Positions 34,808 to 40,756 of a stretch of DNA of 64,000 bases are shown one piece after another. This DNA comes from Chloroflexota bacterium (GTDB lineage Bacteria; Chloroflexota; Anaerolineae; J102). The notes below the pieces were generated by a model that ran no database searches, was not told the origin of the DNA, and saw only the letters and a list, made by a program, of their open reading frames with translations. A program made the translations under genes and the position numbers. The DNA lies in assembly GCA_013151415.1 (NCBI GenBank), contig JAADII010000133.1, forward strand, positions 4,832 to 68,831, read 5' to 3'. The stretch's first letter is position 1. Each line of letters begins with the position of its first letter.

Positions 34808-37330
34808 TCAATTCGCCACGATATTCACCATGCGGCCCGGAACGACGATGACTTTGCGGATGGTCTTGCCGGCCGTCCATTTTTGCACGCGCGGGCTGGC
34901 CAGGGCCGCGGCCTCGATGCCCGCCTTGTCCGCGTCCACGGCCACCTGGATGCGATCGCGCACCTTGCCGTTAACCTGGATCGCGATCTCGACCACTTCC
35001 TCTTTGGCCAATTCGGGGTCGCCCTCGGGCCAGGGCTGCTGGTGGATGCTGTAAGGCTTGCCCAATCGCGCCCACAGCTCCTCGCTGATATGGGGCATGG
35101 CCGGAGCCATCATCAGCAGCAGAGAAGTGATGGCCTCATCCCAGGCTTCGGTTCCATAGACGGGCGTCTCTTTGGCCGCGATGAGCGTGTTGCTAAAGCC
35201 CATCAAGGCCGCGATCATGGTGTTGAATTTGAATTTCTCGTAGTCTTCGGTGACCTTGAGCAGTGTTTTGTGGGTCGCGCGGCGCAAATCCGTGATGGCT
35301 TTGTCATCGGCTGGCTGGTCATGTTGCTTTTTGGGCGGGTCCACCACCAGCGACCACACGCGATGCAGGAATCGATGCACGCCCTCGATGCCGCGCGGGT
35401 CCCACGGCCCGCCCTGGTCCCACGGCCCGATGAACATCAGGAACGCGCGCACCGTATCCGCGCCGTATTTGCTCACATAGTCATCCGGGTTGACCACATT
35501 GCCGCGCGATTTCGACATCTTCTCGCCGTCCGCGCCCAGGATGATGCCCTGATTGAACAGACGCAGCATGGGCTCGTCGAAATCCACCAGCCCTACGTCG
35601 CGCATGGCCTTGGTGAAGAAACGCGTATAGAGCAGGTGCATGGTCGCGTGTTCGATGCCGCCCGTATACTGATCCACCGGCAGCCAGTACTCGCCTACAG
35701 CCTTATCCCAGGGGATATCGTCGGGGCTTAAAGTTTCGCCCTCTTTCCAATAAGGCGAGACATACGCATATTGATACCAGGAGGAGTCCATGAACGTGTC
35801 CATGGTGTCGGTTTCGCGGGTGGCGTCCGCGCCGCAAACCGGGCATTTCACATGCAGGAACGCCTCATGGAATTTCAGCGGGCTCTCGCCGGTGGGCCTG
35901 AACTGCGCGTCTTCGGGCAAAATGACGGGCAGGTCTTCATAGGGCACGGGCACGGTTCCACACTCGGGGCAGTAGATGATGGGGATGGGCGTGCCCCAAT
36001 ATCGCTGGCGGCTGATGAGCCAGTCGCGCAGCCTGTAATTGATCTTGCGCTCGCCGGCCGCGTGCTCTTCCAGCCATTTGGCGGTCGCGTCGAAGCTTTG
36101 GGGCCAGGCCGTCCCGTCGAACGGCCCGCTGTTGACCATGACGCCGCCCTCTTTCAGCGTGTAGGCAGCCTCCATCGCGGCCGCGGCCTCCTCGCTCCAG
36201 GCCGAAGCGTCGCCCGCTTCCCACACCTCCTTGGGGACGATGACGATGGGCGTGGGCAGACCGTATTTGCGCGCGAATTCGAAATCGCGCTGGTCGTGCG
36301 CGGGCACGGCCATGATCGCGCCCGTGCCATAGGTCATCAGCACATAATCCGCGATCCAGATGGGCACAGGCTGACCGTTGACCGGATTGATGGCGTATGC
36401 GCCGATGAACACGCCGCTCTTTTCGCCGGCCTCTTGCTGGCGCACCAACTCGCTCTTGCGCTTGGCTTTGGCCACATAGGCTTCCACTTCCTCGCGATAT
36501 TCGGGCGCGGTGATCTGCTCGACCAGTGGATGTTCGGGCGCGAGCACGGCGAAACTCATGCCAAAGGTCGTGTCGGGTCGGGTGGTGAACACGCGAAAAC
36601 TCAGGTCTTCACGGCCCTGGATCTTCATCTCGAATTCCACGCCCTCGCTGCGACCGATCCAGTTTCGTTGCAAGGTCTTCACCCGCTCGGGCCAGTCGAT
36701 CTTGTCCAGCCCCTCCAGCAGCTCATCCGCGTATTTGGTGATGCGGAACTTCCATTGCTCCAGCTCTTTGACGATGACAGGCGTGCCGCAACGCTCGCAA
36801 TGGCGGTCTTCGCCCCACACCTGCTCGCGGGCCAGGGTCGTGTTGCAGGTGGGACACCAATCCACGGGCGCTTTGTCGCGATAGGCCAGGCCCATGTCGT
36901 AGAATTTGCGGAAGAACCACTGATTCCACTGGTAATAGCCCGGGAGGCAGGTGATGGCCTCGTGCTCCCAATCGAACATGGTTCCCATTTGCCGCAGTTG
37001 CCCGCGCATCCGCTCGATGTTGCGCATGGTCCATTTGTGGGGGTGGATATTGCGCTTGATGGCGGCATTCTCCGCGGGCAGGCCGAACGCGTCGAACCCG
37101 ATGGGAAACCAGACGTTCATGCCGCGCATCCGGCGATAGCGCGCGGCCGCGTCCGAGGGCGCCATCGCGTACCAGTGGCCGGTGTGAAGATCGCCGCTGG
37201 GATAGGGAAGCATGGTGAGGAAGTACCATTTCTCCTTATCCGGGTCTTCGACGCGGCGATACAATCGCGTCTCTTCCCATTTTTGTTGCCATTTCGATTC
37301 GATGGTTTGGGGTTCGTAGCGGTCGGTCAT
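34808..37330 (-). CDS. leuS: Leucyl-tRNA synthetase
   Basis: MLPYPSGDLHTGHWYAM (HxGH), editing domain FTTRPDTTFGMSFAVLAPEHPLV, KMSKSRGNVV. Confidence 0.97.
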   Translation of the reverse strand: MTDRYEPQTIESKWQQKWEETRLYRRVEDPDKEKWYFLTMLPYPSGDLHTGHWYAMAPSDAAARYRRMRGMNVWFPIGFDAFGLPAENAAIKRNIHPHKWTMRNIERMRGQLRQMGTMFDWEHEAITCLPGYYQWNQWFFRKFYDMGLAYRDKAPVDWCPTCNTTLAREQVWGEDRHCERCGTPVIVKELEQWKFRITKYADELLEGLDKIDWPERVKTLQRNWIGRSEGVEFEMKIQGREDLSFRVFTTRPDTTFGMSFAVLAPEHPLVEQITAPEYREEVEAYVAKAKRKSELVRQQEAGEKSGVFIGAYAINPVNGQPVPIWIADYVLMTYGTGAIMAVPAHDQRDFEFARKYGLPTPIVIVPKEVWEAGDASAWSEEAAAAMEAAYTLKEGGVMVNSGPFDGTAWPQSFDATAKWLEEHAAGERKINYRLRDWLISRQRYWGTPIPIIYCPECGTVPVPYEDLPVILPEDAQFRPTGESPLKFHEAFLHVKCPVCGADATRETDTMDTFMDSSWYQYAYVSPYWKEGETLSPDDIPWDKAVGEYWLPVDQYTGGIEHATMHLLYTRFFTKAMRDVGLVDFDEPMLRLFNQGIILGADGEKMSKSRGNVVNPDDYVSKYGADTVRAFLMFIGPWDQGGPWDPRGIEGVHRFLHRVWSLVVDPPKKQHDQPADDKAITDLRRATHKTLLKVTEDYEKFKFNTMIAALMGFSNTLIAAKETPVYGTEAWDEAITSLLLMMAPAMPHISEELWARLGKPYSIHQQPWPEGDPELAKEEVVEIAIQVNGKVRDRIQVAVDADKAGIEAAALASPRVQKWTAGKTIRKVIVVPGRMVNIVAN

Positions 37331-38903: not shown

Positions 38904-39854
38904 CTACAGAGGCCATTCGCCTTCCTCGTAGACATGGTCCAGCCATCCATGCTCGTCCGGATATTCGCCCGAGGTGATGGCGAAGAAGCGCTCCTGGATG
39001 GCCTTGGTGATGGGACCGCGGCTTCCCGAACCGATAGGAACATGATCCACCGAGCGGATGGGCGTGACCTCGGCCGCGGTGCCGGTGAAGAAAAGTTCGT
39101 CTGCGATATAAAGCATTTCGCGCATGAGCACGGCAAATTGCACTTCGTAGCCGAGGTCGCGGGCGATGGTGATCACCGCGTCGCGGGTGATGCCGCCAAG
39201 AATGGAGGAGGAAAGGGGTGGGGTGTAGATGACGCCGTCGCGCACCATGAAAATGTTTTCGCCCGAACCCTCGGACACATAGCCGTGGATGTCCAGACTG
39301 ATGGCCTCGATGAAACCGTTATCGTGCGCCTCCATGGCGATGAACTGGCTGTTCACATATTGGCCGCCGATCTTGCCCAGGGGAGCGAGCGTGCCGGGGG
39401 CCATGCGTCGCCACGAACTCACGGCCACGTCCACGCCCTGGGTCAGCGCCTCTTCGCCCAAATAAGCGCCCCAGGGAACCGTGCCGATGATCACCTCCAC
39501 CGGGCACTTGCGACCGTCCACGCCCAGGCTTTCGTAGCCGCGGAAGACCAGGGGTCGGATGTAACAAGCGTTTTGCTTGTTGGCGCGGATCGCGGCTTTG
39601 GTCGCTTCCATCAGCTCTTCGATGCTGTATTTCAACGGCAGGCGCATGATCTTGCAGGAATCGTGGAGCCGGCGATAGTGTTCGGGGCCGCGGAAGATGG
39701 CCGGGCCTTTGGGCGTGCTATAAGCGCGAATGCCCTCGAACGCGCTGCTACCGTAGTGGAGAGCGTGCGTGAAGACGTGAACCGTGGCCTGATCCCAGGG
39801 AATGAGTTGGCCGTTCATCCACATCCAGTCAGCTTTCATAGGCATGATGATCAC
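38904..39854 (-). CDS. ilvE: Branched-chain amino acid aminotransferase
   Basis: VHVFTHALHYGSSAFEGIRAY, AYLGEEALTQGVDVAVSSWRRM, SGENIFMVRDGVIYTPPLSSSILGGITRDAV. Confidence 0.94.
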   Translation of the reverse strand: MIIMPMKADWMWMNGQLIPWDQATVHVFTHALHYGSSAFEGIRAYSTPKGPAIFRGPEHYRRLHDSCKIMRLPLKYSIEELMEATKAAIRANKQNACYIRPLVFRGYESLGVDGRKCPVEVIIGTVPWGAYLGEEALTQGVDVAVSSWRRMAPGTLAPLGKIGGQYVNSQFIAMEAHDNGFIEAISLDIHGYVSEGSGENIFMVRDGVIYTPPLSSSILGGITRDAVITIARDLGYEVQFAVLMREMLYIADELFFTGTAAEVTPIRSVDHVPIGSGSRGPITKAIQERFFAITSGEYPDEHGWLDHVYEEGEWPL

Positions 39855-40226: not shown

Positions 40227-40262
40227 CAAAAAATCCCTTCGCCCAAGCAGGGACGAAGGGAT
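40227..40262 (-). terminator. T-box-controlled intrinsic terminator
   Basis: Minus strand ATCCCTTCG-...-CGAAGGGATTTTTTG. Confidence 0.85.
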
Positions 40263-40590
40263 CTCCGCGGTGCCACCCTGGTTGCCGGAAAAAAGGAACC
40301 GGTCGTCCGAAACGACCGGCCTCCAAAAGGTGGAGCTGGGGGGACTCGAACCCCCGACCCCCACAATGCCATTGTGGTGCTCTCCCAGCTGAGCTACAGC
40401 CCCAAGATGGAGCGTTCCGACCACTCTGCCGCGATAACGGGCGGAACCCGTCGCCGACTACTTGCGCAAGCGTTCATCGACGCCGCTCCCAGGCGAGTTC
40501 GGCCTTGTTGCGGACCCGTTGACCGCATTGTCGGGCTTGCACTCTCCCCGACTCGCTACCGGGTTGGCCTACTACTCCTGTTCGTTGCGA
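40228..40590 (-). promoter_or_regulatory. T-box riboswitch leader, interrupted by a tRNA-Ala gene
   Basis: Minus strand, in order: AACAGGAGTAGTAGG (K-turn/S-turn), AGCGAG-TCGGGGAGAGTGCAAGCCCGA (Stem I distal motifs), GAACTCGCCTGGGAGC, GATGAAC, Stem III-like GACGGGTTCCGCCCGTTATCGCGGCAGAGTGG, [tRNA 40403-40331], CAGGGTGGCACCGCGG T-box with pairing strand CGTCCCTG, terminator. Confidence 0.82.
40331..40403 (-). tRNA. tRNA-Ala (anticodon GGC)
   Basis: GGGGCTGTAGCTCAGCTGGGAGAGC ... CCACA-ATGGCAT-TGTGG ... GGTTCGAGTCC ... CAGCTCCA. Confidence 0.96.
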
Positions 40591-40631
40591 TGTTGGCTTT
40601 TGAATTGTCAGCCCGGGCGAGCCAGGCCAGG

Positions 40632-40704
<73 letters not shown>

Positions 40705-40726: not shown

Positions 40727-40756
40727 AGTCTAATCGCGGGAGGGCTGTTTTGTCAA
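40727..40756 (-). promoter_or_regulatory. Promoter upstream of tRNA-Ala(CGC)
   Basis: Minus strand TTGACA (40756-40751), 18-nt spacer, TAGACT (40732-40727). Confidence 0.65.

Follow-up and report, generated by a model that had tools for sequence, protein, structure and literature searches.

On the minus strand of the window (the whole 64,000-nucleotide stretch of Chloroflexota DNA analyzed here), the leader of the operon that runs from ilvE to leuS is a T-box with the leucine specifier CUC, and a complete tRNA-Ala(GGC) gene lies in the apical loop of its Stem III. We consider it probable that this is a dual-output leader, one that yields the tRNA constitutively and leucyl-tRNA synthetase (LeuRS) conditionally. 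The arrangement is present in a total of 69 distinct loci, mostly from Chloroflexota and always with tRNA-Ala(GGC), and, as a gene architecture, it seems not to have been described before: an apparently single-copy, presumably essential tRNA gene has been kept inside a riboswitch across much of a phylum.

The presence of a complete tRNA gene within a T-box leader had been proposed in a preliminary description of this DNA, and the Rfam T-box model bears this out. RF00230 aligns end to end (model positions 1–219 of 219) with minus-strand positions 40594–40246 at 73.6 bits (E = 7e-16), with an insert of 119 nt falling within the loop of Stem III. This insert holds the tRNA-Ala(GGC) gene (40331–40403), which both ARAGORN and RF00005 (63.7 bits) call. 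The preliminary description had made a Stem I upstream of the tRNA its own decisive check; segment 40625–40404, which lies entirely upstream of the nested gene, by itself gives a Stem I match of 43.3 bits (E = 1.1e-8). Counting against our preferred reading, the full match falls below the RF00230 gathering score of 93, although that score is a curation threshold and not a biological defining feature. Insert-free T-boxes of the same family, found in a T-box search of 20 family genomes, often exceed 93 bits and reach 119.8. Because of its score the T-box in the window is missed by a default Rfam scan, and since standard annotation reports the tRNA and misses the riboswitch at default thresholds, similar nestings may be overlooked elsewhere.

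Reading in the direction of transcription, the unit begins with a sigma-70-type promoter sequence, TTGACA-18-TAGACT (40727–40756), located 5′ of a second tRNA gene that the preliminary description had overlooked. This gene, tRNA-Ala(CGC) (40632–40704; ARAGORN and Rfam, 65.2 bits), lies 38 nt upstream of the T-box. Stem I (40485–40590) contains the AGTAG sequence, the AGCGAG K-turn, the AG-bulge/distal loop and the specifier loop, as delimited by the RF00230 alignment. Beyond it, the purine motif RRRxG (as described in PMC7583486) is represented by GAGUG (40422–40426), and is followed directly by the 5′ strand of Stem III, GUCGGAA (40415–40421). After the nested tRNA comes a terminator-like hairpin followed by CCTTTTTT (40297–40321), then the 3′ strand of Stem III, UUCCGGC (40284–40290), and the AA dinucleotide at 40283–40282, so that the discriminator element reads GAGUG-GUCGGAA...UUCCGGC-AA with the tRNA between the two strands of the stem. 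In the preliminary description a hairpin ending in CCGTTATCGCGGC had been taken for Stem III; that hairpin is instead an element between Stem I and Stem III, and the true Stem III encloses the tRNA.

The switch half consists of the T-box core CAGGGUGGCACCGCGG (40265–40280), which forms the 5′ half of the antiterminator and carries the UGGN bulge, and a family-conserved intrinsic terminator (40228–40266) that takes up the 3′ strand of the antiterminator, CGUCCCUG (40255–40248). Thus the competing terminator of the preliminary description is indeed present at about 40266–40229, overlapping the antiterminator 3′ strand, and the antiterminator pairing CAGGG/CCCUG and the terminator are mutually exclusive by sequence. 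The first gene of the regulated operon is ilvE, encoding a branched-chain amino acid transaminase (38904–39854, minus strand; NCBIfam TIGR01122, 415 bits), and the operon also contains leuS (34808–37330, minus strand; TIGR00396, 990 bits). Single-sequence folding of the isolated leader was uninformative and, if anything, counts against our preferred reading: the fold was not clearly more stable than those of shuffled sequences, and in the minimum-energy structure the nested tRNA no longer has an intact acceptor stem.

The register of the specifier codon (40495–40497) was taken from the RF00230 alignment and was tested on sister T-boxes, where it gave GUC, UUC and ACC upstream of ORFs resembling, as identified by eye, ValRS, PheS and ThrRS, respectively. 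The CUC so obtained agrees with the downstream ilvE...leuS operon, and CTC is an invariant part of the specifier motif across loci. Since both specifier and operon point to leucine, the nested tRNA is not the ligand of the T-box in which it resides. We considered self-sensing of tRNA-Ala through the three letters that follow CUC (GCC in the window). Unlike CUC, which is constant in the motif, these letters differ from locus to locus, and they extend into the conserved CC helix; as the nested tRNA-Ala mismatches this leucine specifier, self-sensing is not supported.

Strong evidence that Stem III has been maintained around the tRNA comes from covariation. Using 48 distinct 3′ strands, we paired the strand before AA with the strand after the RRRxG motif. 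Within loci, 6.31 of the 7 positions pair; shuffling partners among loci, with the same freedom of site choice, gave a mean of 4.34 (sd 0.14) and a maximum of 4.85 in 2000 shuffles, and sliding the strands by 1–3 nt gave 3.6–4.0 pairs. At most positions the pairs change on both sides, with several Watson-Crick types represented. The RRRxG–Stem III–AA element with its covariation is kept in most distinct loci, and a terminator-like hairpin follows the T-box core in 55 of 66. Stem III can evidently host a whole folded tRNA and yet keep its pairing.

Within the window's family, we ran ARAGORN on the loci returned by the T-box search of the 20 genomes and aligned 16 leaders. All 16 share the promoter, tRNA-Ala(CGC) upstream of the T-box, Stem I, CUC, Stem III, tRNA-Ala(GGC), core and terminator. 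TTGACA and an AT-rich −10-like element occur at the same place in every one, and no conserved promoter was seen in the interval between tRNA-Ala(CGC) and Stem I in these alignments; TTGACA/TAGACT is likely to drive the whole unit. The two tRNA-Ala genes of the window share one T-arm sequence, although most relatives have two different ones; this suggests gene conversion between the pair.

Beyond the family, 397 genomes of the class were searched with a pattern, which matched in 36 of them, mostly with tRNA-Ala ends. A GTDB-wide scan with one genome per species (85,462 species) returned 73 matching stretches, 55 of which hold a nested tRNA close before the core, in every case tRNA-Ala(GGC). No other tRNA nested with convincing Stem I landmarks upstream was found among the 73, in a scan that required the T-loop of a tRNA at a defined spacing ahead of the T-box core and to which tRNAs nested elsewhere in a T-box are invisible. 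Other matches to the global pattern, among them L142, L152, L157, L159, L174 and L197, contain other tRNAs with no convincing Stem I landmarks, and we take these to be chance. The linkage to the downstream operon is equally consistent: all 47 nested loci with more than 450 nt of downstream sequence are followed by leuS (45 loci) or by ilvE of the same operon (two loci). Most of the records are Chloroflexota by title, and a few are labelled Bacillota, Candidatus Aquicultor (Actinomycetota) or Proteobacteria. Nested leuS leaders L162, L189 and L195 come from MAGs labelled Bacillota and Actinomycetota; the Syntrophomonadaceae genome of L162 carries 13 T-boxes, as expected of a real Bacillota genome, and L189 and L195 group together on a LeuRS tree. 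As judged from these sequences, the nesting is ancient and conserved in many Chloroflexota, and its occurrence in so many distinct loci excludes chance. The preliminary description had also suggested that the tRNA uses a variable region of the T-box as an insertion site; the place was right, namely the apical loop of Stem III, but the insertion is an old and conserved one and not a one-off.

The nested gene has the features of a functional tRNA, with a cloverleaf, a GGC anticodon and the G3-U70 identity pair. It is the sole GGC isoacceptor found among the 45 tRNAs of the window's genome, where GCC is one of the commonest alanine codons. The cell would therefore have to transcribe the leader and free the tRNA from it, and as the sole GGC gene the nested tRNA is very likely expressed.

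In the dual-output reading, a single transcript from the tRNA promoter would comprise tRNA-Ala(CGC), Stem I/II, the Stem III 5′ strand, tRNA-Ala(GGC), the Stem III 3′ strand, the antiterminator/terminator and ilvE...leuS. Because both tRNAs lie upstream of the terminator, their synthesis should be independent of the switch, and both would be made whatever it decides. LeuRS would be made on read-through only, when uncharged tRNA-Leu stabilizes the antiterminator. Stem III and its purine flanks would keep sensor and switch correctly aligned, the tRNA folding as the tip; from there RNase P and 3′ processing would excise it, most likely after the decision. Pairing in Stem III could hold the two leader halves together until excision and perhaps beyond. 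We infer co-transcription, this order of decision and cleavage, and continued sensing of tRNA-Leu. One feature of the window counts against this reading, in that the linker hairpin with CCTTTTTT could terminate transcription before the switch, and therefore full function in the window's genome is not to be assumed. The hairpin itself is kept in the family and the T6 tract after it occurs in the window only among the aligned family leaders. As a candidate for a conserved tRNA terminator the linker hairpin was rejected, a terminator-like hairpin with a T tract being found there in just six loci.

Cut sites for tRNA maturation fall between the sensor and the switch at all nested loci, and this raises the possibility, listed among the readings of the preliminary description but in our view fairly unlikely, that RNase P/3′ cleavage competes with antitermination or sets the fate of the leuS mRNA, so that tRNA maturation feeds back on LeuRS. 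We give the same low credence to the corresponding proposal that maturation is part of the switch itself, cleavage either separating the leucine sensor from the antiterminator or leaving a nicked Stem III. If true, alanine-tRNA supply, tRNA processing capacity and LeuRS expression would be coupled in one RNA. Such coupling gains some appeal from locus L242, in which Stem III is about 1 nt from the tRNA on each side and leader–trailer pairing could hinder cleavage. Across loci, however, the linkers between Stem III and the tRNA vary from about 0 to 58 nt on one side and from 3 to 72 nt on the other, and this unconserved spacing argues against any fixed processing geometry and fits tolerance rather than a rigid structural role.

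Comparison of leuS leaders bears on the same question. Among 60 regions upstream of leuS sampled across the phylum, 14 gave a T-box match containing tRNA-Ala(GGC) and one more did so by motif only; in five the tRNA precedes the T-box (L262 with only the tRNA 3′ end inside the region analyzed), three have a T-box without a tRNA, and in a further eight tRNA-Ala(GGC) immediately precedes leuS with no T-box detected (L216, L219, L223, L234, L235, L238, L250 and L263). This tRNA and leuS are separated by a terminator-like hairpin in L216 and L219. Related leaders lacking a nested tRNA, for which the preliminary description had recommended a search, therefore exist, and the three tRNA-before-T-box leaders examined (L210, L211 and L260) all have an ordinary small Stem III loop. 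On a LeuRS tree nested leaders occur in all main parts, and the nested state changes 9 times as against 21 when shuffled; this pattern fits an old nested state with later losses, although, with a quick midpoint-rooted tree and a sample enriched for nested loci, the direction of change is not proven. Persistence of nesting across deep branches would be expected were cleavage part of the switch, but it can also be explained by a tRNA gene that is essential and hard to move, and the same leuS gene is in places preceded by a leader with the tRNA outside or by none.

A tRNA placed before a T-box for another amino acid has a second conserved case in the window's family. At ten loci (L006, L039, L040, L042, L048, L050, L055, L059, L063 and L081) a T-box closely follows tRNA-Val(GAC); nine of these T-boxes have the specifier ACC (Thr), and the next ORF is ThrRS-like in all four that are readable. 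A further T-box, L004, has an AUC-like specifier and precedes an ORF that by eye resembles an alanyl-tRNA editing protein (AlaX-like).

A T-box that is dead, as the preliminary description had contemplated, would leave tRNA-Ala(GGC) as the selected element, the family's leucine sensor having been lost with tRNA-Leu(GAG) and the leader serving as a tRNA precursor with a terminator. We judge this unlikely. In its favor, searches for tRNA-Leu(GAG), whose anticodon is the Watson-Crick match to CUC, found none among the 45 tRNAs of the window's genome, in two relatives rated 100% complete or, using a real tRNA-Leu(GAG) as query, in nine family genomes, where the nearest match, if its anticodon is known, is tRNA-Leu(CAG). 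The terminator-like linker in the window points the same way. But CUC codons are used normally in the family, so another tRNA-Leu must read them; the CAA, CAG, UAA and UAG isoacceptors are all present in the three family genomes checked in full, and the nested lineages G411 and G399 do possess tRNA-Leu(GAG). The failure to find tRNA-Leu(GAG) also counts against the dual-output reading, since leucine sensing in the family would then depend on wobble pairing, with tRNA-Leu(UAG) for instance, and from gene content we predict that the switch there must be read by another tRNA-Leu or respond poorly. Moreover, genera throughout the family, and lineages beyond it, retain the specifier loop, K-turn, RRRxG/AA, Stem III pairing and core. 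Conservation of Stem III, specifier, core and usually the terminator in the 69 loci, together with the strong covariation, disfavors both a dead T-box and a recent insertion.

It is very unlikely that the nested tRNA serves the switch structurally, as a folded cap without which Stem III and the discriminator would not work. Nesting is always in Stem III where it is found, by scans designed for that place, but the linkers vary on both sides and ordinary small loops serve equally in related leaders. Finally, an assembly artefact or recent chance insertion is scarcely credible even for genomes that are mostly metagenome assemblies, since the same order with covarying flanks is found in independent assemblies of many families, and the number of distinct loci refutes it.

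The arrangement makes a question testable, namely whether the T-box decides before RNase P cuts or whether the cut belongs to the decision. In the open-access literature searched, which does not extend to central T-box reviews and so leaves priority uncertain, no report of a T-box containing a tRNA gene came to light, and the accessible parts of surveys covering T-boxes or Chloroflexi make no mention of such an arrangement. In mixed tRNA-mRNA operons such as E. coli thrU-tyrU-glyT-thrT-tufB, one promoter serves both the tRNAs and an mRNA, which are then separated by processing. The tRNAs of those operons stand ahead of the mRNA, whereas here one tRNA is inside a regulatory RNA, between sensor and switch. 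The spacer tRNAs of rRNA operons are likewise released from within a larger structured and functional transcript, but the host RNA here is a riboswitch that decides during transcription. With leucine/leuS T-boxes (RF00230) the leader has in common a Stem I with CUC, the CCGUUA element, RRRxG–Stem III–AA, the UGGN antiterminator, a competing terminator and a leuS operon downstream; it differs in that its Stem III loop is taken up by a complete, functional-looking tRNA gene specific for another amino acid. In some T-boxes Stem III, like other domains, is known to have insertions to which no function has been assigned (PMC7583486). tRNA genes are unmentioned in that account, and the insert described here is, by contrast, a gene whose product translation needs.
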